In this document: one piece after another, positions 22,149 through 48,293 of the stretch
How the letters are laid out: each line of letters starts with the position of its first letter
Position numbering within the stretch: position 1 is the first letter of the stretch
DNA from: Acidobacteriota bacterium
GTDB lineage: Bacteria; Acidobacteriota; Polarisedimenticolia; Gp22-AA2
Length of the DNA: 58,432 nucleotides
Direction of reading: 5' to 3'
Assembly (NCBI GenBank): GCA_018606725.1
Contig: JAGYID010000006.1
Span: forward strand, 1 to 58,432
Translations under genes and position numbers: made by a program
The notes under the pieces: generated by a model
What the model saw: the letters and a program-made list of their open reading frames with translations, nothing else
The model's database searches: none
What the model was told of the DNA's origin: nothing

Positions 22149-22218
22149 GGGTTTGATGCGTCACCGCGCATCGATCCAAGACTTTAGATGCGCATCAGGG
22201 ATTCCACCTGCTTTCTGG

Positions 22219-22247
22219 TTGACAGAACCTCCGTCGCACCGTACAAA
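22219..22247 (+). promoter_or_regulatory. Sigma70-type promoter upstream of modular surface protein
   Basis: TTGACA (22219-22224), 17 nt, TACAAA (22242-22247). The transcript would have a leader of about 135 nt before ATG 22389, in which nothing further was recognised. Confidence 0.7.
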
Positions 22248-22388
22248 TCGGCCAAGCCGCCCGGCCCAACATGCTTCGCCTCACGGGTGCCGGAGAACTC
22301 CTTCGTCGTCAGCACTTCACCCGTCCGGTTCGCTCGATCCGCCGATCGAGGCGACCGGGCCGAGTCTCGCTCGATGAGGAGGCGCTGC

Positions 22389-24149: not shown

Positions 24150-24379
24150 CATCCGACAGTTGGCTGCGCCCGCGACGCACCCCCCTCGCTCTGCCCGCGG
24201 GCCGGAATCCTGTCGGGCACAGATCGAACTCGGGCGAACTCGGGCTCGAACGCTCTCAATACTCGGACACTCTTGAATTCAAGCGGTTTCGAACCATCAG
24301 GCTCCATTTCGCCTGACGGGACGACGTGCGGATGGGCCCTACCCGGGCCGGAAGAGAGACTCTTTCCGGAGGCACACTG
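24150..24379 (+). other. Structured untranslated leader of the giant gene
   Basis: No gene in 24060-24379. The leader has a tandem 10-nt repeat CGAACTCGGG (24225-24244), a perfect 12-nt palindrome CTTGAATTCAAG (24272-24283) and a hairpin CCGGAAGAG / CTCTTTCCGG (24348-24369, loop about 3 nt, one bulge). The hairpin's last bases enter the GGAGG ribosome site (24368-24372). It may control translation; no known riboswitch class recognised. Confidence 0.5.
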
Positions 24380-32881
<8,502 letters not shown>

Positions 32882-32930: not shown

Positions 32931-33836
32931 ATGAAGGTGGCGCGGCGGACACTCCGCCGCGCCGCTGTGTTCGCCGTTCTCCTGGCGGCTGGCGCTCCGT
33001 CTCCGCCGTCCGCGCACGTCGCCGTCGACGCGCAGATCCGGACCCTCGACGTCCGCATCGCCGCCCACCCGTCGGCCGCCGCCCTGCGTCTGCAGCGCGG
33101 CGAGCTGCACCGCGCGCACGCCGACTGGCGCGCCGCCGAGACCGACTATCGCGCCGCCCTGCGGCTCGATCCGACCATGGTCGCCGCCGACCTGGCGCTC
33201 GGCAGGATGCTGCTGGAAGCGGGCCGCCCGGCCGCGGCGCTGGAGGCAATCGATCGATTCCTGATCGCCCGCCCGGACGAGCCTCTGGCGCTCGTGGTCC
33301 GCGGGCGGGCGCTCCTCGCCCTGGGGCGCGCGCTCGACGCGGCCGCCGCCTTCAGCCGCGCCATCGCCCGGACTCCGGCCGCGCGTCCTCCCGACCCCGA
33401 CGTTTATCTGGAACGGGCCCGCGCACTGACCGCGGCCGGTCCCGGGCATCTCACCGAGGCGCTCGGCGGGCTCGATGCCGGGCTCGCGCTCCTCGGTCCC
33501 GTCGCGGCGCTTCAGCTCGCGGCGATCGATCTCGAAGTCGAGCGTCACGACTACGACGCCGCATTGCGGCGGCTGGCCTCCCTCGAGAGCCTGTCGGCGC
33601 GCCGGGCCCCCTGGCAGGTCCGGCGCTCCGCCATCCTCGAGGCGGCCGGCCGGAGCGGCGAGGCGCGCGCCGCCTGCGACACCGCCCTCCAGGCCCTCGC
33701 GGGCCTGCAGGCCGACGGCCGCGGCACGACCCTGAAGGCCGACCTCGCCGACGAGTGTCGCGCCCGTCTGCGACGGTTGGGCGCCGCACGGGGCGAGCCG
33801 GGCGGCGCGGCCGCCGTTCCCGGAGCGGGTGATTGA
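32931..33836 (+). CDS. Exported TPR protein
   Basis: 301 residues. Signal peptide (AAVFAVLLAAGAPSPPSA), then tetratricopeptide repeats: LQRGELHRAHADWRAAETDYRAALRLDP, a second with LGRMLLEAGRPAAALEAIDRFL, a third with RGRALLALGRALDAAAAFSRAI, and weaker helical pairs to the end. Probably a periplasmic protein-protein interaction scaffold. ATG 32931 is 49 nt after the giant gene, and the stop is 2 nt before the phosphatase gene, so it sits inside an operon of modular exported proteins. Confidence 0.8.
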   Translation: MKVARRTLRRAAVFAVLLAAGAPSPPSAHVAVDAQIRTLDVRIAAHPSAAALRLQRGELHRAHADWRAAETDYRAALRLDPTMVAADLALGRMLLEAGRPAAALEAIDRFLIARPDEPLALVVRGRALLALGRALDAAAAFSRAIARTPAARPPDPDVYLERARALTAAGPGHLTEALGGLDAGLALLGPVAALQLAAIDLEVERHDYDAALRRLASLESLSARRAPWQVRRSAILEAAGRSGEARAACDTALQALAGLQADGRGTTLKADLADECRARLRRLGAARGEPGGAAAVPGAGD

Positions 33837-33838
33837 TC

Positions 33839-36800
33839 ATGCGCCGGCGCTCCGTTCTCCTTGCCGCGCTGCTCCTTCTCCCGGCCCTCTCGGGACCGGG
33901 CGCCGCCACCTCCACGCTCGTCGCGCTGGGCTCGGCGATGCGCTATCTGGGAAACGCCTCGGACCCGGGGATCGGCCTGCAATGGACGAACGAGGCCTTC
34001 GACGATGCGTCCTGGGGCGGCGGCACCTACGGCGTCGGCTATGAGACCGCCCCGCCCGGCGCCACGAATCTGCTGAAGACGACCGTTCCGGCCGGCGCCT
34101 ATTCCGTGTACACCCGCGCCCGCTTCACCATCGCCGACGTCGGTAAGGTCGCGAGGATCACTTTCGGCGCCGATTACGACGACGGTTACGTTGCCTGGGT
34201 GAACGGCGTCGAGGTCGCGCGCTCCGGCTCGATGCCGGCCGGCTCCCCCGCCTGGAACACCAATGCCGCCGCGCATGAATCGAGCAACGGCTCGGTCCCC
34301 AATTACGGCACGCCGACCGACATCACTGCGCGCGCCGTGCCGGCGCTGCACAACGGCGCCAACGTGCTGGCGGTCGGCGTCTGGAACAGCGGCGCGGCCA
34401 CCTCCACGGACCTGGTGCTGGTCCCCTCCCTCACCGTCGACATCAGCTCGCCGGTCGTCCGCGGCCCTTATCTCCAATCCGGCAGCGCCACCGGGATCGT
34501 GGTGCGCTGGCGCACCTCGACGCCGACCGACAGCGTGGTGCGCTATGGTCCCGACCCCGCCGGGCTGACCATGAGCGCCGTCGACCCCGCGCTGACGACC
34601 GAGCATGTCGTTACCCTGTCGGGACTCGTGCCGGCGACCAGGTACTACTACTCCGTCGGCGCGGCGGCGGGTCCCCTGGCCGGCGGCGACGACGCGACCT
34701 ACTTCCTGACCAGCCCGGCGCCTGGCGCGCCCCCCCCGATCCGCATCTGGGCCGTCGGCGACTCCGGCACCGCCGACGCCAACGCCCGCGCCGTGCGCGA
34801 CGCCTACAGCCTCCGGAACGGCTCCGGCACCACCAACGTCTTTCTGATGCTCGGCGACAACGCTTACAACGAGGGGACCGATCAGCAGTATCAGGCGGCG
34901 GTGTTCGACATGTACCCGGAAATCCTGAAGCAGACGGTGCTGTGGCCGACGCTCGGCAACCACGACGGCATCACCGCCGACTCCTCGACCCAGAGCGGGC
35001 CGTACTACGACATCTTCACGCTGCCGCGCGCCGGCGAAGCGGGCGGGCTGCCGTCCGGCACCGAGGCTTACTATTCCTTTGACTACGGCAACGTCCACTT
35101 CATCTGCCTCGATTCAAACGAAACCAGCCGCTCCCCCACCGGCGCCATGCTGACCTGGCTGCAGCAGGACGCCCTGTCGACGGCGGCCGACTGGACGATC
35201 GCCTTCTGGCACCACCCCCCCTACAGCAAGGGCTCGCACGACTCCGACACCGAGATCGAGCTCTACGAGATGCGCCAGAACGCCCTGCCGATCCTGGAGC
35301 GCGCCGGCGTCGATCTGGTCCTGACGGGGCACAGCCATTCGTACGAGCGCTCGTACCTCATCGACGGTCACTACGGCTCGTCGACGACCTTCACCGGGGC
35401 GATGAAGGTGGACGGTGGCGACGGGCGCGAGGACGGCACCGGCGCCTACCGCAAACCGAAGGCCGGGCCGGCGCCGCACGAGGGCGCGGTGTACGTCGTC
35501 GCGGGCAGCTCGGGGCAGACCAGCGGCAGCACCCTCAACCACCCGGCCAACTACCTGTCGCTGAACATCCTCGGATCGCTGGTGCTGGATGTGAACGGCC
35601 GCCGCCTCGACGTCCGCTTCCTGGACAGCGGCGGCGCCTTCCGCGATTACTTCACGCTCATCAAGGGCCCGGTCATCCCGCCGCCGGTCGCCGACTTCCT
35701 CGCCGCGCCGACGGCCGGCGACGCGCCGCTCCCGGTGCAGTTCACCGACCTGTCGTCCGGCGCTCCGACCGGCTGGACATGGGACTTCGACGGCGACGGG
35801 ACCGCCGACAGCAACGAACCGCAGCCGGTCTTCGAGTATCAGGCGGCCGGGCTGTTCAGCGTGAGCCTCGAAGTGGTCAACGCCGCCGGCAGCAGCGCCA
35901 AGTCGAGGCCCGGCTACATCTGCGTGACCTCCGCCGACGGGATGGCCGATGCGGACGGCGACGGCGTGCGCGATGGACTGGACGTCTGCCGCTGCGCGCC
36001 GGACCCGGCGCAGACCGATACCGACGGCGACGGGTCGGGTGACGCCTGCGACGCCGACGACGATGGCGACGGCGTCCCGGACGCCGACGATTGCGCGCCG
36101 GCGGCCCGCGGTCTTTGGGCACCGCCGCAGCCGATCGGCGACACCCTGGCGGTGTCCACCGGCGGCGGCCTCTCGTGGCTCCGCAGCCTCGGCGCCAACA
36201 CCGCCAACATCTACCGCGGCACCATCGCCCCCACCGGACCGCATGCGCGCAACGAGACCTGCCTGCTGGCGGAGCGCCCGGAGACCTTCGCGGCCGATCA
36301 AACGATCCCGCCGCCGGGCGTCGCCCTGTACTATCTCGTCAGCGGCAGGAACGCCTGCGCCGAGAGCGCCGCGGGGTTCGACAGCCGGGGGAACCCGATC
36401 GTCCCCCCGACGGCCTGCCCGGGCCAGGGGCGCGACAGCGACGGTGATGCGCACCCGGACCTCGAGGACAACTGTCCGCTCACCCTCAACGCCGCGCAGG
36501 ACGACGCCGACCGCGACGGCATCGGCGACGCCTGCGACAACTGCGGTGGCGCGGTCAATCCCGGCCAGCTCGACACCGACGGCGACCAGGCGGGCGATGC
36601 CTGCGACAACTGCCCGGCGCTCGCCAATCGCGACCAGGCCGACTTCGACCGCGATCTGCTGGGCGACGTCTGCGACCCCGACGACGACAATGACGGCGCC
36701 GCCGACGGCTCGGACTGCGCGCCGCTGGACGGCCGCTTTTTCGCGCCGCCCGGCGAGGTCGGACCGTCAGTCGTCGTCGGACCTGCGATCGACGCCATCA

Positions 36801-37051
36801 CCTGGAACGCCACAGCGCAGGCAACCGCTTACAACGTTTATCGCGGTCGCGCCTCGACGCTTCCCCCGTTCGCTTACAACCACTCGTGTTTCGAGGCGAA
36901 CTCGCCCGACACGGCGGCGACCGACCCGGATCTGCCGGCACGAGGCGATTTCTTCTATTACCTGGTGAGCGCCGTGAACGCCTGCGGCGAGGGGACGCTC
37001 GGGACCGATTCCGGGGGATCCGGGCGTCCAAATCCGGGCGCCTGCCCGTAA
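33839..37051 (+). CDS. Exported purple-acid-phosphatase-like protein with jelly-roll, PKD and C-terminal CP modules
   Basis: 1070 residues. Signal peptide, jelly-roll-like module (21-200), fibronectin-like N-terminal domain of purple acid phosphatases (204-294), then a metallophosphoesterase (about 301-610). All five metal-ligand motifs are present (VGDSG, GDNAY, GNHDG, FWHHPPY, GHSHSYER). A PKD domain (614-695, WTWDFDGDG) and thrombospondin-3-like calcium repeats alternate with two copies of the C-terminal module (761-860 and 969-1070), the last ending FYYLVSAVNACGEGT and NPGACP. Likely a secreted or surface phosphatase acting on phosphoesters. TTG 33833 is an alternative start. Coupled 2 nt after the TPR gene. 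Confidence 0.88.
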   Translation: MRRRSVLLAALLLLPALSGPGAATSTLVALGSAMRYLGNASDPGIGLQWTNEAFDDASWGGGTYGVGYETAPPGATNLLKTTVPAGAYSVYTRARFTIADVGKVARITFGADYDDGYVAWVNGVEVARSGSMPAGSPAWNTNAAAHESSNGSVPNYGTPTDITARAVPALHNGANVLAVGVWNSGAATSTDLVLVPSLTVDISSPVVRGPYLQSGSATGIVVRWRTSTPTDSVVRYGPDPAGLTMSAVDPALTTEHVVTLSGLVPATRYYYSVGAAAGPLAGGDDATYFLTSPAPGAPPPIRIWAVGDSGTADANARAVRDAYSLRNGSGTTNVFLMLGDNAYNEGTDQQYQAAVFDMYPEILKQTVLWPTLGNHDGITADSSTQSGPYYDIFTLPRAGEAGGLPSGTEAYYSFDYGNVHFICLDSNETSRSPTGAMLTWLQQDALSTAADWTIAFWHHPPYSKGSHDSDTEIELYEMRQNALPILERAGVDLVLTGHSHSYERSYLIDGHYGSSTTFTGAMKVDGGDGREDGTGAYRKPKAGPAPHEGAVYVVAGSSGQTSGSTLNHPANYLSLNILGSLVLDVNGRRLDVRFLDSGGAFRDYFTLIKGPVIPPPVADFLAAPTAGDAPLPVQFTDLSSGAPTGWTWDFDGDGTADSNEPQPVFEYQAAGLFSVSLEVVNAAGSSAKSRPGYICVTSADGMADADGDGVRDGLDVCRCAPDPAQTDTDGDGSGDACDADDDGDGVPDADDCAPAARGLWAPPQPIGDTLAVSTGGGLSWLRSLGANTANIYRGTIAPTGPHARNETCLLAERPETFAADQTIPPPGVALYYLVSGRNACAESAAGFDSRGNPIVPPTACPGQGRDSDGDAHPDLEDNCPLTLNAAQDDADRDGIGDACDNCGGAVNPGQLDTDGDQAGDACDNCPALANRDQADFDRDLLGDVCDPDDDNDGAADGSDCAPLDGRFFAPPGEVGPSVVVGPAIDAITWNATAQATAYNVYRGRASTLPPFAYNHSCFEANSPDTAATDPDLPARGDFFYYLVSAVNACGEGTLGTDSGGSGRPNPGACP

Positions 37052-37435: not shown

Positions 37436-40400
37436 ATGCTCGGTCAAGGTCGACGCGCCCGGCTGTGCCTTGTTTCTTTTTCGGCAATCATGCTGCTTCT
37501 CCTGTCTCCGACCCCCCTCGTCACCGGGTTATCAGAGGGTGAGAAACCCACTGCCGTTTCTCCATCGAGCGAGTGGGTCGCGCCAGCGGCCGATGCATGC
37601 ACCCCGTCCGGGGATTTCGTCCCGAAGGTGGAGTACGGCACCTGGATGAGTTACCGGGTCAATACGGCCTCGGACAATATCTCGAGCGGCGACCTCGTGC
37701 TGGTGCAGTGGCACTCTCCGATGACCTATTTCGCCAACTCAATCTCCACACATCTGACCGGTCTCGACTGGATCACGGCCTCCTTCGATGATTCGCAGTG
37801 GTACGGCAGCACATATGGGATCGGCTACGACACCAACCCGACTACCAACGCATTGGCGCTGATCGACCAGACAGTGCCGGCCTCGACCCCCTCGGTGTAC
37901 ACGCGCGTGCCCCTCAGCATTACACCCGCCCAGCTCGTCGGACGCAGGGTGCTCATCGGCTTCGACTACGATGACGGTGTCATTGCCTGGCTGAACGGCA
38001 CGGAGCTCTTCCGCTCACCGCAGATGCCCGCGGGTAATCCCTCCTGGGACACGCTGGCGGCGCTCCACGAATCAAGCAACGGCACCACCCCCAACTACAG
38101 CCCGATCCACGACGTCACCGCCACTTTCAAGCAAGCGATGCAGGATACTGGCAACGTTCTCGCGATCGGCGTCTGGAACCGGGACGTGGCGACCGAATCG
38201 ACCGACATGCTGCTCGTGCCCAAGCTCGTGCTGGTGGGCGACTGGACCGCTCCGGGCTTCGACGCGTCCGGCTGGAGCCAGGGTCAGTACGGCGTCGGCT
38301 ACGACACCGCGGCACCGCCCAACGCCACCGCCCTGCTCAAGACGTTGGTCGCACCGGGCGCGTACTCCGTCCTGACCCGCGCCACGTTCCATGTTGACCA
38401 TGCGTCCGACGTGACCGGACTCCGCCTGGGCGCCGATTTTGACGACGGCTATGTCGCCTGGATCAACGGGGTCGCGGTGAACTTGGCATCGATGCCCGAC
38501 GGCGATCCGGCGTGGAACACGAACGCCATCTCTCATGAATCGAGCAACGCGGCGGCGCCGAACTACGGTTCCCTCGTTGACATCCTCCCGGTGGCGCGAC
38601 CATACCTGAGGGACGGCGACAACGTGCTCGCCATCGGCGTGTGGAACTTCAACGCCCCCAATTCGAGCGACCTGGTGCTCGTCCCCTATCTCGACGTCCG
38701 TGAGTCCCCCGAAATTTGCGATGGCGCCGATAACGACTGCGACGGCCTGATCGATGAAGACGCCACGGATCCCAGCGCCTGGTACCGTGACGGCGACGGC
38801 GACGGCTACGGCGATCCGGGCCAGACTCAACAAGCCTGCGCCCAGCCATCCGGCTACGTCTCCGACAACACCGACTGCGACGACACCGACCCCGCCGTTC
38901 ATCCCGGTGACTTGGAAGTCTGCGACGGCAAGGACAATGACTGCGACGGCGCCATCGACGACGGCACCGACCAGCCGACCACCTGCGGCGTCGGCGCCTG
39001 CGCGTCTATCGGCGTCATCGCCTGTGTGAGCGGCGTCCTGCAGCCCGATACCTGCACCCCGGGCACTGGCACCGCCGAGACCTGCAACGGCCTCGATGAC
39101 GACTGCGACGGCGCCGTCGACGACGGCACCGACCAGCCGACCACCTGCGGCGTCGGCGCCTGCGCTTCGATCGGCGTCATCGCCTGTGTGAGCGGCGTCC
39201 TGCAGCCCGACACCTGCACCCCGGGCACTGGCACCGCCGAGACCTGCAACGGCGTCGATGACGACTGCGACGGCGCCATTGACGACGGCACCGACCGGCC
39301 GACCACCTGCGGCGTCGGCGCCTGCGCGTCTATCGGCGTCATCGCCTGTGTGAGCGGCGTCCTGCAGCCCGACACCTGCACCCCTGGGACCGCGGTCGCC
39401 GAGACCTGCAACGGCCTCGATGACGACTGCGACGGCGCCATCGACGACGGCACCGACCAGCCGACCACCTGCGGCGTCGGCGCCTGCGCCTCCACCGGCG
39501 TCATCGCCTGCCTCAACGGCACGCTGCAGCCCGATACCTGTACCCCTGGGACCGCGGTCGCCGAGACCTGCAACGGCCTCGATGACGACTGCGACGGCGC
39601 CATCGACGAGAATGGCGCTGCCCTGTGTGACGATACCGACCCCTGCACCGCCGAGTCGTGCGAGGGGGTCGCCGGCTGCCGGTACGATCCGATTCCACCC
39701 GGCACCGGTACCTGCCCGGGCGCTCCGGTCACGGTGACGATCACGCCGTCCCGGACAATGCCGACGACCGGCAGCCAAATCGGAGCGTGCGTACAGATCG
39801 ACATGGGGACGACGGGCGAGAGCCTCGGGAGCTACGGACTGAGACTATCCTGGAACCCGACGGTGCTGGCATACGCCGGCCACACGGGTGGAACGATCCC
39901 GTTCAGCACACCATCCGCCAACACGAGCAACGCGGCATTGGGCGAGCTCCGCTTCGCGGACGCCGCCGACGACGGCGTCGGCGCCGGAGGCACTGTCTTC
40001 GTCCTGTGCATCAACTTCGGCGTGATCGGTCCGGCCGGGTCCGGAACGACGCTCGACATCGAGCTCACGTCCCTGTTCTCGTCCGGGTTCACGAATCTCC
40101 AGCCGACCGCAGTGGCGATCGATGCGTCGATCAATGTCAAACACGGCTGCATCATCGGCGACGTGAACGGTGACGGACAGGTCAATTCGGGCGACGCGCT
40201 CCTGATCCTGTCGTACGAAGTGGGGCTCCCGACGGTCCCGCAGGCCGTCCGCGCCGCCATCGCCGACGGGTGCGGGGACGCCAGCGGCGACGGCCTGACC
40301 GACTCGACGGACGCGAACATCGTGCTGAGCTACGAGATCGGTCTGCCGATCGATCCGTCGCTGCCGATCGGGCAGGAGAACCGCACGATCGACACTTGCC

Positions 40401-40882
40401 CGGTTTGCACGATCGGTGCACCCGTCAGGCCTGCGGCCGCGATGGCGGCGCCGGCAGTCTCAACCGGTGATGCCGTGTTCGCAAGCGTCACCTCGTCCGT
40501 GAGCAAGCCGAAGCGCAACGCGGAGTTCGAGATCCTGGTCGCGCTCGACTCCGGGACCGCGCGGGTCGGCAGCTACGGCGCGACCCTCGCCTGGGATCCC
40601 AAGCTGGTCGAGATGGTGGGCGTGGCCGGCGGCCGGACGCCGGGCTTCGATGCGCCGGTGGTGAACCGGTCGGCCTCGGCCGCTGGCTCACTGCGCTTTG
40701 CGGGCGCGAGCCCGTTGGGCGCCACCGGCCGGGTGGAAGTGGTGCGGGTGACGCTCCGGGCGCTCCGAGCGCTTCCGAAGGTCGATGACGCGTTCAGTTT
40801 GTCGTTCAGCTCTCTGGGGAGCCCGGGCCCGGGGTTCGAAAACCTGTTGCCCCGGGTCCAGGTATTGTCGGAGGGGCGATGA
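37436..40882 (+). CDS. Exported scaffold protein: jelly-roll x2, MopE x6, cohesin-dockerin-cohesin
   Basis: 1148 residues; ATG follows AAGGAG at 5 nt. Signal peptide (LCLVSFSAIMLLLLSPTPLVTG), two jelly-roll-like modules (85-265, 269-421), one canonical MopE unit with WYRDGDGDGYGDPG and DCDD, and five more MopE motifs in a 162-nt periodic array (to about 727). Then a cohesin-like domain (763-901, GSYGLRLSWNP, LRFADA), a dockerin (904-975) with two calcium loops (GDVNGDGQVNSGD and GDASGDGLTDSTD), and a second cohesin (1008-1145, GSYGATLAWDP, GGRTPGF, GFENLLP). Dockerins bind cohesins in cellulosomes; here both partners lie in one chain, allowing polymer formation or self-closure (inference). 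First gene of a three-gene operon. Confidence 0.85.
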   Translation: MLGQGRRARLCLVSFSAIMLLLLSPTPLVTGLSEGEKPTAVSPSSEWVAPAADACTPSGDFVPKVEYGTWMSYRVNTASDNISSGDLVLVQWHSPMTYFANSISTHLTGLDWITASFDDSQWYGSTYGIGYDTNPTTNALALIDQTVPASTPSVYTRVPLSITPAQLVGRRVLIGFDYDDGVIAWLNGTELFRSPQMPAGNPSWDTLAALHESSNGTTPNYSPIHDVTATFKQAMQDTGNVLAIGVWNRDVATESTDMLLVPKLVLVGDWTAPGFDASGWSQGQYGVGYDTAAPPNATALLKTLVAPGAYSVLTRATFHVDHASDVTGLRLGADFDDGYVAWINGVAVNLASMPDGDPAWNTNAISHESSNAAAPNYGSLVDILPVARPYLRDGDNVLAIGVWNFNAPNSSDLVLVPYLDVRESPEICDGADNDCDGLIDEDATDPSAWYRDGDGDGYGDPGQTQQACAQPSGYVSDNTDCDDTDPAVHPGDLEVCDGKDNDCDGAIDDGTDQPTTCGVGACASIGVIACVSGVLQPDTCTPGTGTAETCNGLDDDCDGAVDDGTDQPTTCGVGACASIGVIACVSGVLQPDTCTPGTGTAETCNGVDDDCDGAIDDGTDRPTTCGVGACASIGVIACVSGVLQPDTCTPGTAVAETCNGLDDDCDGAIDDGTDQPTTCGVGACASTGVIACLNGTLQPDTCTPGTAVAETCNGLDDDCDGAIDENGAALCDDTDPCTAESCEGVAGCRYDPIPPGTGTCPGAPVTVTITPSRTMPTTGSQIGACVQIDMGTTGESLGSYGLRLSWNPTVLAYAGHTGGTIPFSTPSANTSNAALGELRFADAADDGVGAGGTVFVLCINFGVIGPAGSGTTLDIELTSLFSSGFTNLQPTAVAIDASINVKHGCIIGDVNGDGQVNSGDALLILSYEVGLPTVPQAVRAAIADGCGDASGDGLTDSTDANIVLSYEIGLPIDPSLPIGQENRTIDTCPVCTIGAPVRPAAAMAAPAVSTGDAVFASVTSSVSKPKRNAEFEILVALDSGTARVGSYGATLAWDPKLVEMVGVAGGRTPGFDAPVVNRSASAAGSLRFAGASPLGATGRVEVVRVTLRALRALPKVDDAFSLSFSSLGSPGPGFENLLPRVQVLSEGR
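38921..39616 (+). repeat. Coding tandem array of 162-nt MopE units
   Basis: Motif-opening Cys codons at 38921, 39083, 39245, 39407 and 39569: four exact 162-nt units plus a closing motif. Each unit includes DQPTTCGVGACAS (one copy reads DRPTT) and LQPDTCTPGT; units are nearly identical in DNA. Confidence 0.92.
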
Positions 40883-40943
40883 GAGGGGCGGGTGCGACAG
40901 GTGCGATCATTGCGTGGAGACCCAATTCGAGAAGGAGAAGCCG

Positions 40944-43286
40944 ATGAGACGGATCGTGGGTGTCCTGTTCGCGTTGGGCTTGATGGTCTGGCTGGCTCCG
41001 GCGGTCGAAGCGGCACCAATCGCGCCCATCCCCGGCTCGCCATTCATCTTCCCGGAGGGCGGGGTCAACTCAAACGTCGTGCTTCTGCATCCGAACGAGC
41101 GGAAGCTCTTCGTCACGAACCAGTCTAGCTCGGAGATTACCGTCCTCGATGTGGCCCCCGATGGAACGTTGACGTTTTTCGGCAAGTATCCGACGCTTGT
41201 TGGGGTGGATATCGTCAGCGCGCCCACCGGCATGGCGATCAACCCCGCCGGTGACCGCCTCTACGTTACAACCTTCGCGACAGGCGTGGTCAACGTGCAT
41301 GGTATCGCACCGGACGGTTCCTTGACGCAACTCCAGTCCATCAGCCTGGGAACTCCCAGTGCCGCCCTCAACGGCATCGTGTATGTATCGCTGCCCGGCG
41401 CAGGAGACTTTCTTTATGTCGACAATCAAGCTTCAGGCACGAACACGGTCACGGTGTTCGCAGTCGGGCTGGATGGTCTACTGATCCGCCTCAGTGTGGT
41501 CCCGACCGGCGGCGCCGGGGGCGGGGGCGGGTACTTCGCCGCGCCCAACGCACGTTCGCTGCTGGCCGAAGGCATGCGCTTGTATGTCGTGAACGGCGGG
41601 TTGGCAAACGCCGGGTCCAACGACATCTCCGCCTTCGACATCATGCCCGATGGGACGCTGGCTGCGATTCCAGGATCACCCTTCCCGCTTCCAGCTGGTA
41701 CACGGACGTCTGGATCGATAGCCGTGGACGCCGGACGGGCCAGGCTGTATGCCGGTTTGGACGGAGGTCGACTGGCGCGGTTCGACATCACACCCGGGGG
41801 CTTCCTGCTTCCAACGGGAGTCTTCCCGACAGGGCTCACAAGACCCATAGACGGTCTCGAGCTCCATCCCTGCGCGCCGATCCTCGCAATCACCGACGAC
41901 TCACCGACCGCTACCTCCAGGGTCGCCTTCTTGGAAACAAATCTTATGGCGCCCCTTGCGGGAACACCGGTTTTGACATCCGCCGATGAAACTGTCGGGC
42001 TGGACTTCAATGCCGACGGCTCCCTCTTGTTCGTCGGCCAGGCAGAACCCGTCACGACCGTGAGCGTCCTCAACACCTCCTTGATCCCCGAGACCTACTG
42101 CCGGCCCCCGGGCGTGCATGCCTCGGTGACGGCCTCGAACAACCGGCCGGCCGAGGGCAGCCGGATCAGCGCCTGCGTTCACCTCGACATGGACGGCACC
42201 GGCGAAGCGCTCGGCAGCTACGGGGCGAGCCTCGCGTGGGACCCGGGCGTGCTCCGGTATTTTTCCTACACCGGCGGGACGTTCCCGTTCGACACACCGT
42301 TCGTCAACATCGCCAACGTCGCTGCCGGCACGCTGCGCTTCGCGGACGCGGACGCGACCGGGGCGAGCGGCGAAGTGTTCGTGTTCTGCGCGACGTTCGA
42401 CGTCATCGGGACGGCCCCATCCACGACGCCTCTCGATCTCGAGCTGACGTCGCTGTTCGCCGCCGGCACGTTTGCCGATCTCCTGCCCGGGGCCTTGGTC
42501 GCGGATGGCACGGTTGCGGTCCTGCCGGCGTGCACGATCGGGGACGTCAACGCCGACGGTGGGATCAATTCCGGCGACGCCCTCATCCTGCTGGCCAACG
42601 AGGTCGGCCTGCCGCTGCCGCCGCCGGTCCCGAGCCTGATCGCGGCAGGGTGCGGGGACGTGAACGGCGACGGGATGACGAACTCGACCGACGCCAACAT
42701 CATCCTGTCGTACGAGGTCGGCCTGGTGCGGGCGGAGGACTTCCCGCTCGGGGACTCGAACCGGACGTTCCAGGAATGCCCGTTCTGCGCCCCGTCCGCT
42801 CCCGCGCTGGCGGCGCCGGCCCTGGCATCCGCCGCGATAACGGCGGAAGAGGTCGGCCCGTTGACGGTGCGGATCACGAGCTCGGCGGATCATCCAAAGC
42901 GGGGTCTCGAGTTCGAGGTGACGGTGGCTCTCGACGGCGGCGGAAACGGACGCAGCATCGGCAGCTACGGCGCGGTCCTGCGCTTCGATCCCAGGGCCAT
43001 GACGTTCCTGAACGCGGCGGGCGGACGGACAGCCGGGTTCGAGGGGCCGATGGTCAACCGCTCCGGCGCCGCCGGGGGCGAGATCCGCTTTGCCCACGCC
43101 AGCCCGGAGGGGGCGTCGGGGACGGTGGAGCTCCTGCGCGTCCGGTTCCGGGCCTTGCGGGCCCTGCCCGATCCGGGTCGCGTTGTCGGGGTCGGCTTCA
43201 CTTCTCTCGCCGCCCCTGCACCGGGGTTCGAAAACCTGTTGCCTGGCCTCCAGGTTGACGGGATACTCGGCAAGGCGAAGAAGTGA
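40944..43286 (+). CDS. Exported beta-propeller protein with cohesin-dockerin-cohesin
   Basis: 780 residues. ATG 40944 has AAGGAG 6 nt upstream; the frame is open further up but has no signal. Signal peptide (IVGVLFALGLMVWLAPAVEA), then a YVTN/lactonase-type beta-propeller (26-382: LHPNERKLFVTNQSSSEITVLDV, INPAGDRLYVTTF, LYVVNGGLANAGSNDISAFD). A cohesin-like domain (391-525, GSYGASLAWDPG, LRFADADATGAS), a dockerin (530-597; GDVNADGGINSGD and GDVNGDGMTNSTD calcium loops) and a second cohesin (629-775, GSYGAVLRFDP, GGRTAGF, GFENLLP) follow. The C-terminal half is clearly a duplicate of the preceding gene; the N-terminal cargo differs. 61 nt after its neighbour. Confidence 0.87.
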   Translation: MRRIVGVLFALGLMVWLAPAVEAAPIAPIPGSPFIFPEGGVNSNVVLLHPNERKLFVTNQSSSEITVLDVAPDGTLTFFGKYPTLVGVDIVSAPTGMAINPAGDRLYVTTFATGVVNVHGIAPDGSLTQLQSISLGTPSAALNGIVYVSLPGAGDFLYVDNQASGTNTVTVFAVGLDGLLIRLSVVPTGGAGGGGGYFAAPNARSLLAEGMRLYVVNGGLANAGSNDISAFDIMPDGTLAAIPGSPFPLPAGTRTSGSIAVDAGRARLYAGLDGGRLARFDITPGGFLLPTGVFPTGLTRPIDGLELHPCAPILAITDDSPTATSRVAFLETNLMAPLAGTPVLTSADETVGLDFNADGSLLFVGQAEPVTTVSVLNTSLIPETYCRPPGVHASVTASNNRPAEGSRISACVHLDMDGTGEALGSYGASLAWDPGVLRYFSYTGGTFPFDTPFVNIANVAAGTLRFADADATGASGEVFVFCATFDVIGTAPSTTPLDLELTSLFAAGTFADLLPGALVADGTVAVLPACTIGDVNADGGINSGDALILLANEVGLPLPPPVPSLIAAGCGDVNGDGMTNSTDANIILSYEVGLVRAEDFPLGDSNRTFQECPFCAPSAPALAAPALASAAITAEEVGPLTVRITSSADHPKRGLEFEVTVALDGGGNGRSIGSYGAVLRFDPRAMTFLNAAGGRTAGFEGPMVNRSGAAGGEIRFAHASPEGASGTVELLRVRFRALRALPDPGRVVGVGFTSLAAPAPGFENLLPGLQVDGILGKAKK

Positions 43287-43311
43287 CGGGAGAGGCACGG
43301 AGGTCCGCGCG

Positions 43312-44133
43312 TTGAAACACTGCGTGATCGTCCTGGCCTGCGCCGGGGCCCTGGGTACGACGGGGGCCCTGGCGCAGGTCCGGGGTGAGATCGTCCCGGC
43401 CCGTGGCGTCGCCGAAACCGGCGGACTCTACCGGGTCGGCATCGACGTCGACATGCTGAAGACCGGGAAGCTCCTGGGGAGCTACGGTGCCGTGCTTCGC
43501 TGGGACCCGGCGGTCCTGCAGTACGCCAGCGATTCCGGTGGCCAGTCTCCGTTCAGCGGGGCGGTGGTGAACCGGACGGCGACCGCGACCGGGACGCTGC
43601 GCTTCTCGGCCGCCGCCCCGGAAGGGGCCCCCGGCCACGTCAACGTCTTCAACGTCACCTTCCGCGCCGTCGCCCGGTCGTGCGTGAACTCGTTCCTCGA
43701 CCTGGAGTTCACATCGCTCTCCACGGCTCTGACCTTCGAGAACCTCCTGCCGCAGTTGACGGTTGTGGATGGCACGGTGAGCATCATCGACGAGTCTCTG
43801 AACCTCATGGTGAACGACGAGGTGGCGACGATCCTGACCTGGGACGCGGTGCCCGGCGCGGTCACCTACGACGCCATCCGCGGCCGGCTCGGCGGGATGT
43901 CGCAGGACGCCGTAACCATCCACCTCGGCCAGGTCGTCTGCGTCGAAAACGACTCGCTCGACACCACAACCGGAGAGGGGTCCGAGCCGGCGCACCCCGA
44001 TACCGAAAGCCCCGCACTGGGCACGGGCTTCTTCTATCTCGTCCGCTTCAACGACGGGTTCATCAACGGCGGGTACGGCTTCAGCCAGGGGTGCGAGCGC
44101 CAGCGGGTGGCCGACGGCGGAGACTGTCCGTAG
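43312..44133 (+). CDS. Exported single-cohesin protein with C-terminal CP module
   Basis: 273 residues. The start is TTG 43312, with GGAGG 8 nt upstream and a signal peptide immediately after (HCVIVLACAGALGTTGALAQ); no ATG or GTG fits. One cohesin-like domain (about 26-155: GSYGAVLRWDPAVLQY, GAVVNRT, LRFSAAAPEGAPG, FENLLPQL) is followed by a module (about 165-273) with ILTWDAVPGAVTYDAIRG, GFFYLVRFNDG and a terminal DCP. It could be the docking receptor for the two dockerin proteins encoded 25 nt and further upstream (inference). Confidence 0.82.
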   Translation: MKHCVIVLACAGALGTTGALAQVRGEIVPARGVAETGGLYRVGIDVDMLKTGKLLGSYGAVLRWDPAVLQYASDSGGQSPFSGAVVNRTATATGTLRFSAAAPEGAPGHVNVFNVTFRAVARSCVNSFLDLEFTSLSTALTFENLLPQLTVVDGTVSIIDESLNLMVNDEVATILTWDAVPGAVTYDAIRGRLGGMSQDAVTIHLGQVVCVENDSLDTTTGEGSEPAHPDTESPALGTGFFYLVRFNDGFINGGYGFSQGCERQRVADGGDCP

Positions 44134-44210: not shown

Positions 44211-44855
44211 TCAGCGCCCGCCGATCACCCCCGACACCGACTTGGAGGGGGTCATCAGGAAGTCTTCGCTGAGGGAGATGCCGACCCGCCCGCTGTCGAG
44301 GAGCGCGTGCAGCGGCGCCTGGGCCGACAGCTCCCAGTCGCCGTATCCGGGCGCGTAGCGCTTCGTGGGGATGAGGTCGTGCTCCTTGAGGAGGAGCTCG
44401 GCGCGCCGCTCCATCTCGAGACCGAGGGCGATGGCGGCGCTGCTGGCGAAGGCGTCGGCCAGCAGCGCGCGGCTCAGGTTGTCGGCCGCCAGCATGCCGC
44501 GCAGCCAGTCCTCGATCGGCTGGCCGACGGTGGCGGCGAACAGGACGGCGTGCCGGCAGCCGGCCAGCCGCTCGCCCAGCGACCGGCTGGCCGAATGGAG
44601 AATGCCGCCGATGACCGTGCGGCCTTCCCCTATCTCGACATCGAACAGGCCGTCAACGGCGGCGGGCGCCAGCAGGCCGCGACCCTCCTCCATCACCTCG
44701 TCGATCAGCTTGGAAACCCGTTCGGAAACCTGCGCCGGCCGGCGGTAGCCGAGCCGCAGCAGCACCATCGGGCGCCCGACGGCGATGGCGATGTCCCGGG
44801 CGATCCGGGTCTCGGGGCGGCTCACATCGTCGCGGCCGGCGGGGTCGCCGCTCAC
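44211..44855 (-). CDS. Methionine-synthase activation-domain-like protein
   Basis: 214 residues. The C-terminal signature KRYAPGYGDWELSAQAPLHALL...SLSEDFLMTPSKSVSGVIG is that of the S-adenosylmethionine-dependent reactivation domain of cobalamin methionine synthase (MetH). Stand-alone copies occur in corrinoid methyltransferase clusters. The GTG start at 44855 overlaps the stop of the MttB-family gene (GTGA), indicating coupling; GTG 44825 is an alternative. It probably reductively remethylates an oxidised corrinoid protein, which must be encoded elsewhere since none is in the window. Confidence 0.82.
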   Translation of the reverse strand: MSGDPAGRDDVSRPETRIARDIAIAVGRPMVLLRLGYRRPAQVSERVSKLIDEVMEEGRGLLAPAAVDGLFDVEIGEGRTVIGGILHSASRSLGERLAGCRHAVLFAATVGQPIEDWLRGMLAADNLSRALLADAFASSAAIALGLEMERRAELLLKEHDLIPTKRYAPGYGDWELSAQAPLHALLDSGRVGISLSEDFLMTPSKSVSGVIGGR

Positions 44856-46321
44856 GCCCGCGCGGCGGCTGGCAGCGCCTCCATGCCGAATTCCCTCGAC
44901 TCGCGCAGCACCACGGCGTCGAGGGCCCGCACTATCTCGTCCGGTAGGCGGAACGGCGGGCGCGCCAGCAGGTCCTTGACGACCCCCTTGGCGCGCTCGT
45001 AGTCGGAGACGCCGCCGCCTCCGGGCAGGGCGCTGCTGCGGTCGAGCACCTTGCCGGGGAGCGTCGCTTCCTCGCGGAACAGCTGCAGGGTGGTCGGGTG
45101 GCCGAGGAAGTGCCCCTTCTCGATCGCCTCGGGCAGCAGGTCGAGGGCCATCTTCTCGTGCCGCTGCCGGATGCCGTCGATCAGCCGGTACGCGAGGCCG
45201 CAAATCTCGTTGTCGATCACCAGCTTTTCGAGACTCTGGCAGGTGATGAAGTCGAGAATGCCGACCCCCGAGACGACGTTGACCCCCGCCAGCGCCGCCA
45301 GGATCACCCCGGTGCCGGTCTCGTAGCCGGCCTGCGCGTCGACCAGCTTGCTGTCCGACAGCCCCATGTAGGAGTGGATCGGGAAGCCGAAGCGCTTGCC
45401 GATCTGCGCGTAGGCGGTGTCGATCATGTAGGTTTCCAGCGAGCCGAACGGCGTCTGCCCGCCGCGCATGTCCATGATGCACGGCGCGCCGCCGTACACC
45501 ACCGGCGCGCCCGGGCGGACCGCCTGGGCGAGCGCGATGCCGGCCAGGTTCTCCGCGGTGTGCACGACGAGCGTCCCCGACATGGTCACCGGCCCGGTGG
45601 CGCCGGTGAGCGGCACCGAGATGATCTCCGAGGGGAAACCGTGCTTCGCGGCCTGCATGATGCTCTCGGAGGTCAGGTCGCTCCAGCGCAGCGGCGACGA
45701 CGGGCAGGCGTCGAAGATCACCATCGGCTTCCCGGTTGCCGCCGCCTCGGAGCCGCGCACGATCGTCATGATCTCGAGCATCATCGGAAACGATTCCCCG
45801 CGGAACAGCCCGGTCACGATCGGCTTGTCGCAATGCTGTACCGCCAGGTAGAGACGGAAGAAGTCCGAGACCTCGTTCGGCACGTCCTGCGGCACGACCG
45901 AGGTCGACTGCGCCTTGATGTGCTGCAAGTGCTGGACGAGGCGGGCGATCTGCACCGCGTCGGAGGAGGTGGAAGCGCGAGTGTGACCGTCATGCTGCAG
46001 CATCTTGATCGCCGCCGAGCCGGGATCGTAAGTGACGTTGTCGCCGCCCACCTCGATGAACGCGTCGCCGGTGACATTCCAGAGCTTGAACGACTTCGGC
46101 GCCGTGGCGATCGCCTTCTCCACGAAGTCGCGCGACAGGAAGGCGCGCTCGCGCGCCTTGTCGATCCGCTGGCCGTGCTCCCCGAGGAGGGCGAGCGCCT
46201 TCGGGTGCTCGAATTGCAGACCGAGGCGGCTGAGGACCTCGAACGCCTCGTCGATGATCCGGTCGATCATCTCCTCCGACAGCATCTGGAGGCGCGGTCG
46301 CATGACCGGCAGCAGGCTCAC
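44852..46321 (-). CDS. MttB-family (trimethylamine/glycine-betaine type) corrinoid methyltransferase
   Basis: 489 residues, full length for the family, with LSRLGLQFEHPKALALL, FDACPSSPLRWSDLTSESI, VTMSGTLVVHTAENLAGIALAQ, PVVYGGAPCIMDMRGGQ, LSDSKLVDAQAGYETG and FLGHPTTLQLFREE. Members move a methyl group from a quaternary or tertiary amine to a corrinoid protein. There is no in-frame amber codon, so this is a non-pyrrolysine member; the methyl donor cannot be read. GTG 46321 is preceded by GGAGG and overlaps the upstream stop (GTGA). Confidence 0.87.
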   Translation of the reverse strand: MSLLPVMRPRLQMLSEEMIDRIIDEAFEVLSRLGLQFEHPKALALLGEHGQRIDKARERAFLSRDFVEKAIATAPKSFKLWNVTGDAFIEVGGDNVTYDPGSAAIKMLQHDGHTRASTSSDAVQIARLVQHLQHIKAQSTSVVPQDVPNEVSDFFRLYLAVQHCDKPIVTGLFRGESFPMMLEIMTIVRGSEAAATGKPMVIFDACPSSPLRWSDLTSESIMQAAKHGFPSEIISVPLTGATGPVTMSGTLVVHTAENLAGIALAQAVRPGAPVVYGGAPCIMDMRGGQTPFGSLETYMIDTAYAQIGKRFGFPIHSYMGLSDSKLVDAQAGYETGTGVILAALAGVNVVSGVGILDFITCQSLEKLVIDNEICGLAYRLIDGIRQRHEKMALDLLPEAIEKGHFLGHPTTLQLFREEATLPGKVLDRSSALPGGGGVSDYERAKGVVKDLLARPPFRLPDEIVRALDAVVLRESREFGMEALPAAARA

Positions 46322-47247
46322 CGTGGTCCCTCCTCTCGCAGGGCAGGAGCGGTTCGTTCGCCGACCGCCCCGCGCAGCATGGCGATGAACTCCGGCGTGG
46401 TGCCGCAGCACCCCCCCAGAATGTTGACGCCGTAGGTGGCGATGACCCGCATGTCGGCGACGAACTCTTCGACGGTCTGCTTGTAGGACATCACCTGGTT
46501 CTCCAGCACCGGCTTGCCGCGGTTCGGCTGCACGATCACCGGCAGGTCGGTGCTGTCGCGGATGATCTGCGCCAGCTCCAGGAACACCGGGCTGCCGTGC
46601 GAGCAGTTGCTGCCGACGATGTCGGCGCCATAGTCCTTCAGGGCCTGCATGCACTTCGGCACGGTCTCCCCCATCAGGGTGAAGAAGCCGCGCGGATTCT
46701 TGTCGAAGGTCATGCAGACCGACACGGGCAGGTCCGGCTTGATCGTCTTGGCGGCCCGCAGGGCCGACAGCGCCTCTTCGAGCGAGTACATCGTCTCGAT
46801 CGAGATCAGGTCGACGCCGCCGTCGGCGAGGCCCTGGACCTGCGCCGCGAAGGAGGCGTCGAACTCCTCGCGCGTGAACTCGCCCATCGGTTTCATGAAC
46901 TTGCCGATCGGCCCGACATCGCCGGCGGTGTAGCGGCCCGGCGGGCAGAGGGCTTTGAGGTTTTTCGCCGCCAGGAAGTTGGCGTCGTAGGTGCGGTCCT
47001 GCAGGTCGCGCTCCGACAGCTTGATCGGCGTGCCGCCGAAGGTGTTGGTCTGCACCACGTCGGCGCCGGCGTCGTAGTAAGCGCGGTAGACACCGTCAAC
47101 GACCTCCGGCTTTTCCCAGTTCCACGGCTCGGGTGACTCGCCGTCGAGCAGGCCGAGCCCGAACAGCATGGTCCCCATGCCGCCGTCGTAGATCAGCAGC
47201 CGCTCCCGTGCCGCTCGATGGATCGGTGCTACGCCCCGTCCGTTCAT
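46318..47247 (-). CDS. Homocysteine S-methyltransferase (MetH N-terminal / BHMT type)
   Basis: 309 residues. Barrel motifs LLIYDGGMGTML and TNTFGGTPIKL, and the three zinc Cys: Cys215 in GSNCSHG and Cys280-Cys281 in LGGCCGTTPEF, all present. It should bind homocysteine and transfer a methyl group to give methionine. The length matches the isolated homocysteine-binding domain, without pterin- or cobalamin-binding domains. ATG 47247 follows GAGCGAGG. First gene of the coupled trio with the MttB-family and MetH-activation genes, so the methyl donor is probably a corrinoid charged by MttB (inference). Confidence 0.88.
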   Translation of the reverse strand: MNGRGVAPIHRAARERLLIYDGGMGTMLFGLGLLDGESPEPWNWEKPEVVDGVYRAYYDAGADVVQTNTFGGTPIKLSERDLQDRTYDANFLAAKNLKALCPPGRYTAGDVGPIGKFMKPMGEFTREEFDASFAAQVQGLADGGVDLISIETMYSLEEALSALRAAKTIKPDLPVSVCMTFDKNPRGFFTLMGETVPKCMQALKDYGADIVGSNCSHGSPVFLELAQIIRDSTDLPVIVQPNRGKPVLENQVMSYKQTVEEFVADMRVIATYGVNILGGCCGTTPEFIAMLRGAVGERTAPALREEGPR

Positions 47248-47304
47248 CCGCGCCTCGCTCCCCGTGCCGTTCTGTAAAACCGTGGACCGCCGGAGGATGC
47301 GGAC

Positions 47305-47333
47305 ATGGTACGCGGGAGGCGCCGCGGAATCAA
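47305..47333 (-). promoter_or_regulatory. Possible promoter of the methyltransferase operon
   Basis: Minus strand TTGATT (47333-47328), 17 nt, TACCAT (47310-47305), about 55 nt before ATG 47247. No cobalamin or SAM riboswitch is visible in this short leader. Confidence 0.45.
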
Positions 47334-48293
47334 TCACCCGTTGGCGTCCGCCTCCGCCTGCTCCACCGCGGCCTCCACCGGATCGGCGCCGCCGGTCCCG
47401 GAGGAGGCGCTGGCGAGGACGAAGGCTGCGCCGATGATCAATCCGGCGCCGGCCCACTGCAGCGGCAGCAGCCGTTCACCCAGAAACAGGGCCGCCAGCA
47501 GGATGGTCCCGACCGGTTCGAAGGTGCTGAGGATCGAGGTGACGTGCGGCCCGACCCGCTTGATGCCGACGACGTACAGGACGAACCCGAACACCGTCGA
47601 GCTCAGCACGGTGCCGAGCAGGGCGCCCCAGGCGGCGGCGCTCTGCGGCAGCTCGAACCAGCCGAGAGCCAGGGCGCCCAGATCGGAGGCGGCCGCCGCC
47701 CCGGTGATGATCATCGCGCCCGACAGCACCCCCGGCAGGCCGGCCGTCAGCCGGTGCAGGGCGATCAGGAACGAGGCGTACCAGACGGCGGCGGCGAGGG
47801 CCAGCAGCGCGCCGCCGGCGTGCGCCCTGCCTTCGATCGGGCCGGCGCACAGCGTCGTGCCGACGAGCGCCAGCGTGATGGCGGCGAGGCGCCAGGTCTC
47901 CGGCCGGCGTCCCGTCCGGGCCCAGGTGATGATCGCCACGAACGCCGGCATGGTGTAGAGCAGCACCTCGGTCAGGCTGGCCGGGATCAGACGCAACGCC
48001 GCGAAGAACAGCACCGCCTGCCCGGCGTAGCCGAACACGCCCCACAACAGCAGGCCGATGACGCGCCGGCGCGGCAGATCGGCCACCGCCCGGCGCAGGC
48101 GCGGCACCAGGAAGACCCAGGCCCACAGCATGGCGGCGCCGATGGTGAAGCGCGTCGACAGAAGGGACGGCAGCGACAGCCCCGCGGCATAGGCCATCTT
48201 GCCGAAGATGCTGAGGGCCGAATAGCAGAAGGCCGAGCCGATGACCAGGGCGAACCCGATCAGATCGACGCGCCGCTTCGTCCGAGTCTCCAG
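47334..48293 (-). CDS. EamA/DMT-family inner-membrane transporter
   Basis: About 319 residues, ten predicted helices in two EamA halves (LLLWGVFGYAGQAVLFFAALRLIPASLTEVLLYTMPAFVA; later FVLYVVGIKRVGPHVTSILSTFEPVGTILLAALFLGE). The obvious ATG (48197) would delete helix 1. The frame continues upstream through a hydrophobic stretch (LIGFALVIGSAFCYSALSIF) to a CTG at 48293 with AGGAG exactly 6 nt before it and no ATG, GTG or TTG in between, so a CTG start is proposed. Exporter or importer of small metabolites; substrate unknown. Confidence 0.82.
   Translation of the reverse strand: METRTKRRVDLIGFALVIGSAFCYSALSIFGKMAYAAGLSLPSLLSTRFTIGAAMLWAWVFLVPRLRRAVADLPRRRVIGLLLWGVFGYAGQAVLFFAALRLIPASLTEVLLYTMPAFVAIITWARTGRRPETWRLAAITLALVGTTLCAGPIEGRAHAGGALLALAAAVWYASFLIALHRLTAGLPGVLSGAMIITGAAAASDLGALALGWFELPQSAAAWGALLGTVLSSTVFGFVLYVVGIKRVGPHVTSILSTFEPVGTILLAALFLGERLLPLQWAGAGLIIGAAFVLASASSGTGGADPVEAAVEQAEADANG

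Follow-up and report, generated by a model that had tools for sequence, protein, structure and literature searches.

The window, which is the whole stretch of DNA that was analysed (58,432 nucleotides), comes from a metagenome-assembled Acidobacteriota genome (3.7 Mb, 235 contigs, 95% complete) and encodes a non-cellulosomal cohesin–dockerin system, which is a distinct form and not a cellulosome. Two consecutive genes, P1 and P2, encode proteins in which a dockerin is flanked on both sides by cohesins (Coh-Doc-Coh), and a third gene, P3, encodes a single cohesin followed by a C-terminal tail domain. The presence of a cohesin and a dockerin on one chain is already known. What is new is the comparative evidence, as follows. 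In other phyla, the dockerin and the cohesin downstream of it recur either fused in one chain or split between neighbouring genes. We propose that P3 is a tail-bearing socket to which the dockerins of P1 and P2 would bind, so that both proteins would be retained, and that the additional cohesins would permit links between chains. To this reading of the sequence comparisons we give an even chance.

The P1-P2-P3 locus and its modules

P1, P2, and P3 are codirectional on the + strand, with gaps of 61 nt (P1–P2) and 25 nt (P2–P3), and each product has a hydrophobic, signal-peptide-like start, as judged by eye. P1 (37436-40882; 1148 aa) is an exported protein in which the signal peptide is followed by two beta-sandwich domains (aa ~89-430), MopE-type repeats (aa ~424-726), cohesin A (39734-40120), a dockerin with two calcium loops (40151-40372), and cohesin B (40481-40867). 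P2 (40944-43286; 780 aa), also exported, starts at the ATG at 40944, which is preceded by AGAAGGAGAA, and has a signal peptide, a lactonase-type beta-propeller, cohesin A (42120-42503), a dockerin with two calcium loops (42534-42752), and cohesin B (42867-43259). P3 (43312-44133; 273 aa) starts at the TTG at 43312 and is made of a signal peptide, one cohesin (43384-43767), and the tail domain (43795-44130), which ends in ...GDCP directly at the stop codon. A scan of the locus for promoters and terminators gave no signal above chance. The sequence-only reading had described a dockerin flanked by cohesins in P1 and in P2, a one-cohesin gene 25 nt downstream, and no glycoside hydrolase nearby. 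The first is borne out by Pfam, mutual homology, and predicted fold, the second by the position and single cohesin of P3, and the third by the scanned neighbours, among which no glycoside hydrolase is found. Its description of the N-terminal parts stands for the MopE motifs of P1 and the lactonase-type propeller of P2, both recognized by Pfam. A small correction concerns its jelly-roll: the beta domain of P1, which consists of two copies of one domain, has no Pfam name.

Both dockerins exceed the curated Pfam cut-off for PF00404 (22.9 bits), with 31.8 bits for P1 and 32.9 bits for P2. The two good calcium loops claimed for each are indeed canonical (GDVNxDGxxNSGD and GDxxGDGxTxSTD), and a helix follows each loop of the P2 dockerin (155-165 and 193-203 of the predicted module). 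In clostridial dockerins, two loop positions steer cohesin recognition. At these positions, the window dockerins have recognition-type residues, Ser-Gly and Ser-Thr. Both window dockerins (40139-40408 and 42519-42791) also share four conserved cysteines, which could form disulfides; a CPxC motif that follows the second helix contains two of the four.

The expectation that Pfam would recognize the modules was thus confirmed for both dockerins and, among the five cohesins, for P1 cohesin A, which scores 29.6 bits against the PF00963 cut-off of 24.1 bits; the other four are below the cut-off or unmatched (P1 cohesin B, 16.1 bits). The five nevertheless align throughout, with 25 invariant columns and 33-53% identity to P1's first cohesin, and an own-family profile matches all of them with E-values of 1e-56 to 1e-64, these being its training sequences. 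P1 cohesin A is also matched by the family profile. P1 cohesin B is assigned by homology to other cohesins (profile E 5e-33) and the P3 cohesin by profile (E 1e-42) and by a 116-aa alignment with P2 cohesin A at 49% identity. P2 cohesin A, assigned by homology and profile, was also modelled with AlphaFold2 and compared to solved structures. The model superimposes on solved cohesins with Z 16.6 and an rmsd of 1.8-2.4 A over about 132 residues, the top fold matches being 2xdh and 1g1k, both at Z 16.6. The best sequence match among solved cohesins is likewise 2xdh, from Archaeoglobus fulgidus (E 0.0013). In the P2 module, pLDDT is about 95 for the first cohesin, 80-90 for the dockerin, and about 92 for the second cohesin. 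P2 cohesin B is thus predicted with high confidence; its identity as a cohesin comes from homology, including the profile, only. The cohesins and dockerins of P1–P3 are bona fide modules outside a cellulosome.

Possible partners are few, since Pfam recognizes no more than three dockerins in the genome and, of its six cohesins, five are encoded at this locus. Two of the dockerins are those of P1 and P2, and the third, on contig C81, ends a protein that has no cohesin. The sixth cohesin forms the C-terminal end of a GspD-like secretin of the type II secretion system. Among 396 Acidobacteriota genomes, dockerins of this subfamily (E <1e-20) were found only in the host genome and in G097 (LaPlata_bin-3695). 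This patchy presence suggests horizontal transfer, on the basis of distribution rather than of a tree. In another genome of the same class (G034, contig C115; loci L013 and L195), the gene for a TSP3 protein with a C-terminal cohesin stands directly before one for an exported protein whose C terminus is a weak dockerin, which scores 14.2 bits and is thus below the Pfam cut-off. The Pfam score is quoted here because the iterated dockerin profile includes its own matches, so that its E-values are not independent.

The surroundings of the locus are modular as well. The beta-sandwich pair of P1 (37700-38725) is common to two large upstream proteins. One is a 2851-aa LamG/MopE protein (24326-32881), with 52% identity to the P1 pair over 378 aa, and the other is a purple-acid-phosphatase-like product (33833-37051), so that one stretch encodes three modular exported proteins made from common parts. 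On the other side of the locus, genes for an MTTB (trimethylamine-type methyltransferase), a homocysteine S-methyltransferase, and a B12-dependent methionine synthase activation domain are grouped together at 44211-47457 on the - strand.

Fused and split forms in other phyla

The two-sequence Coh-Doc-Coh alignment found no match when used as a scan query; loci were found when the sequence from G097, which also has Coh-Doc-Coh in one chain, was added. The species-genome scan then identified the module in bins labelled Calditrichota, KSB1, Chloroflexota, Bacteroidota, and Actinomycetota and, distantly, in an archaeon. Because the same order recurs in other phyla, Coh-Doc-Coh is more than a chance arrangement, as far as sequence comparison can tell. 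Besides the P1/P2 locus, Coh-Doc-Coh in a single chain is found in another Acidobacteriota genome and in Calditrichota-type genomes (L028/L041, L030, L031, and L032). A single-chain Doc-Coh is found at L035-L040. In the split forms, a separate cohesin gene follows either a Coh-Doc chain (L033 and, twice, L034) or a dockerin chain (L042, L043, L044, L045, L046, L047, L048, and L052). The split order occurs in genomes labelled KSB1, Chloroflexota, and Bacteroidota, where the downstream cohesin is the next gene and has its own signal-peptide-like start and, in many cases, a type IX sorting tail. The type IX-tailed Coh-Doc-Coh proteins of one bin, 'Deltaproteobacteria bacterium PRO9', closely resemble those of a Calditrichaceae bin (L030 and L031), and the label of the former is probably wrong.

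The 12 genomes of the found loci were searched whole for both domains. Among the 69 dockerins counted, 41 are followed directly by a cohesin, which for 25 of them lies 70-145 nt away on the same chain and for 16 is encoded by the next gene; for the remaining 28, there is no downstream cohesin or the contig ends there. A cohesin lies upstream in the same chain for 21 of the 69. Part of this adjacency is due to ascertainment. Since the genomes were found by a Coh-Doc-Coh query, dockerins outside the seed loci were counted separately, by hand: 20 of 41 have a cohesin directly downstream and 15 of 41 directly upstream, and these 41 are not 41 independent events because most are from the related genomes G396 and G397.

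The fused and split forms divide at the same point, that is, dockerin then cohesin, and fused and split gene pairs often mark interacting partners. The cohesin tree, which comprises 73 cohesins and 132 columns and is weak in depth, bears on whether the downstream cohesins correspond. Next-gene cohesins cluster together with those that lie downstream in fused Calditrichota-type chains (support 96/85 for an inner group of 27 rows), and the upstream cohesins of the same kind of chain form another group (99/96, ten rows). In Calditrichota-type genomes, the socket encoded by the next gene therefore appears to be equivalent to the downstream cohesin of the fused chains. The Chloroflexota next-gene cohesins are placed elsewhere. 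In the window, the A cohesins of P1 and P2 pair (with L029, 99/83), as do their B cohesins (100/9). The P3 cohesin is nearest to the B pair, with a weak support of 10/87.

The tail domain and the proposed docking to P3

Loci of the Calditrichota/KSB1 type have a type IX sorting domain behind the downstream cohesin, whether that cohesin is fused or split. In the eight split pairs with a detected type IX motif (L033, L034 twice, L042:5892, L044, L045, L052, and L155), it is the cohesin gene that carries the motif, and the dockerin chain lacks it. Sorting-domain models place a type IX domain on the relatives L031 and L033. In L042:187-726, a split cohesin gene that is complete, no sorting motif is seen. 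No T9SS sorting domain of type A or B was detected in P1–P3, which by that test are not type IX secretion cargo.

P3 has a different tail. Its C-terminal domain is about 100 residues long, ends in ...GDCP (other copies end in ...ACP or GDCP), and gave no match for P3 in Pfam or NCBIfam. A profile built from four copies has 30 matches in the host genome (L160-L189), 23 of which end within 30 aa of the stop. In the host class, 41 of 41 genomes have the domain, with copy numbers from 4 to 80; outside the class, 2 of 19 genomes do. Four proteins of the window bear it, as follows: P3 (43795-44130), the phosphatase-like protein 33833-37051 (36755-37048), the 2851-aa protein 24326-32881 (32609-32878), and the product of 22188-24059 (23787-24056). 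It is absent from P1 and P2. The division between P3 and P1/P2 is therefore the same as in the type IX pairs, with the tail on the cohesin gene only. By analogy, the position of the domain resembles that of a sorting or anchoring domain, and we regard it as a candidate lineage-specific sorting signal in Acidobacteriota. We know of no described equivalent in that phylum for such a class-wide signal.

P3, with its signal peptide, cohesin, and C-terminal tail, fits the split-partner type on these sequence features. We therefore return to the proposal made at the outset. P1 (beta-sandwiches and MopE repeats) and P2 (beta-propeller) would be exported cargo that lacks a tail domain of its own, and P3 would be a small socket whose tail is the domain that ends many exported proteins of the class. 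The dockerins of P1 and P2 would bind the P3 cohesin in a calcium-dependent manner, as in known pairs, and by analogy with sorting domains, the P3 tail would provide the anchoring step, so that P1 and P2 would be retained wherever the tail places P3, presumably the envelope or the surface. The two extra cohesins of each cargo protein could take further dockerin proteins, giving mixed P1–P2 chains that end on P3. Docking to the single-cohesin protein had been raised as a possibility from the sequence. It is supported because several phyla have a dockerin gene with a gene for a signal peptide and a cohesin directly after it, and the class-wide tail of P3 is consistent with it. The small number of partners in the genome, the recognition-type loop residues, and the gene pair of G034 also speak for it. 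Several points count against P3, among them the ascertainment in the adjacency counts and the motif-less split gene L042:187-726. In fused forms, a cohesin on the same chain as the dockerin could bind it in place of P3. The P3 cohesin groups with the B cohesins weakly and by pairwise identity is nearer P2 cohesin A.

The same plug-socket order in distant phyla suggests, from sequence comparisons, a general way to fix exported proteins mutually and to the cell. A broader form of the proposal is that bacteria that do not degrade cellulose widely use Coh-Doc-(Coh) as a module for docking at the surface, and that its downstream cohesin bears the sorting domain of the lineage, that is, type IX in Calditrichota/KSB1-type genomes and the apparently uncatalogued tail in the host class. 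We find this plausible, leaning somewhat against it. A tail on the cohesin side of fused and split Doc-Coh turns the question of role into a direct test, namely whether retention of the dockerin protein depends on the tailed cohesin. It also names natural candidate pairs for plug-socket tools.

Alternatives and known systems

The chains could also assemble with each other and need no anchor. Each P1 or P2 chain has one plug and two sockets, so that its dockerin might engage a second P1 or P2 chain through cohesin B or A and build a head-to-tail polymer, or might bind the cohesin B behind it, which would give a self-capped chain. A cohesin fused directly behind the dockerin, as in 25 of the 69 cases, is what this arrangement would use, and in the AlphaFold2 model of P2, the roughly 25 residues between the dockerin and cohesin B are of low confidence and probably a flexible linker, which would permit the chain to fold back on itself. 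However, the models, which offer no inspectable interface, give no sign of a firm contact between the dockerin and cohesin B: pTM is 0.79 for CohA-Doc alone and 0.62 for the whole three-domain module. These values and the linker would fit a CohA-Doc unit with a loosely tethered cohesin B. Furthermore, self-assembly has no need of a tail-bearing single-cohesin gene, and known cohesin–dockerin pairs are often selective. We consider self-assembly rather unlikely.

A further explanation is that the cohesin-like domains are structural beta-sandwiches, with cohesin A as a buttress packed against the dockerin, comparable to the X module in X-dockerins, and the dockerin itself as a calcium-stabilized spacer that does no docking. 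The pTM of the CohA-Doc model fits a packed unit; comparison of that model with solved chains aligns mostly over the cohesin part and is uninformative about the interface. The spacing of the upstream cohesin and the dockerin is nearly constant, at 31-43 nt in 21 chains, and dockerin-less proteins with cohesin-like domains exist in the class (L011 and L012). But the dockerins retain the duplicated loops and the recognition-type residues, and a spacer role leaves unexplained that the downstream cohesin is a separate secreted gene in 16 loci. In addition, the closest solved relative, the A. fulgidus cohesin, belongs to a pair that has been used as a working binding pair (PMC9705933). A purely structural role is thus improbable.

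It is very improbable that the socket is the cohesin-like C terminus of the GspD-like secretin (L004, G000:C223), with docking serving export of the cargo: the feature does recur in relatives (L014, L016, L020, and L021), but it is only a distant match to the P1–P3 cohesin subfamily (E 0.0076), and these relatives keep the secretin cohesin and show no dockerin of the subfamily, for which reason it probably has another role.

A cellulosome was considered and rejected. The 95% complete genome has three dockerins, none of them seen on a polysaccharide-degrading enzyme, and its chains have at most two cohesins each.

With docking to P3 as the preferred reading, the locus can be placed among known systems. 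The sequence-only reading had contrasted P1 and P2 with known cellulosomes, in which cohesin scaffoldins and dockerin enzymes would be separate. This contrast does not hold: most scaffoldins carry cohesins and a dockerin together (PMC12484212), and some ANME archaeal proteins carry one dockerin with up to five cohesins (PMC9012536). In primary and adaptor cellulosome scaffoldins, the dockerin of the cohesin-bearing chain links to an anchoring cohesin (PMC12484212), a likeness to what we propose for P1 and P2. In contrast to scaffoldins, P1 and P2 have cohesins on both sides of the dockerin, in a genome with only three dockerins, no dockerin enzymes seen, and no glycoside hydrolases nearby.

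The ANME proteins resemble P1 and P2 in having cohesin and dockerin in one chain, in having no part in cellulose degradation, and in their proposed extracellular assembly; they differ in their cargo, which consists of substrate-binding proteins and S-layer domains, and the available part of that source reports no fused/split pattern (PMC9012536). The same part notes that non-cellulosomal cohesins and dockerins have been known for years and that their role is not clear (PMC9012536).

The A. fulgidus protein 2xdh is the closest solved relative by sequence and ties for the best by fold, and it too comes from an organism with no cellulosome, although its cargo domains are other ones and identity is <20%. 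In A. fulgidus, cohesin and dockerin are on neighbouring and shared chains. A Coh-Doc-Coh chain with a tail-bearing single-cohesin gene behind it is not known to us from that organism. Nor did we find, in openly accessible papers, a description of the Coh-Doc-Coh unit, of the fused/split pattern, or of cohesin–dockerin in Calditrichota.

The cellulosome-like system of the Cloacimonadota (Ca. Stygibacter) is similar in combining dockerin cargo with a cohesin protein that has a C-terminal sorting domain, for attachment to the surface. Unlike P1–P3, whose chains have one or two cohesins each and whose cargo does not consist of hydrolases, it is built on one very large tandem-cohesin scaffoldin carrying hydrolases (PMC8542988). 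A small scaffoldin occurs in G396 and G397, each of which encodes a dockerin-less, type IX-tailed protein with three cohesins (L156 and L157).
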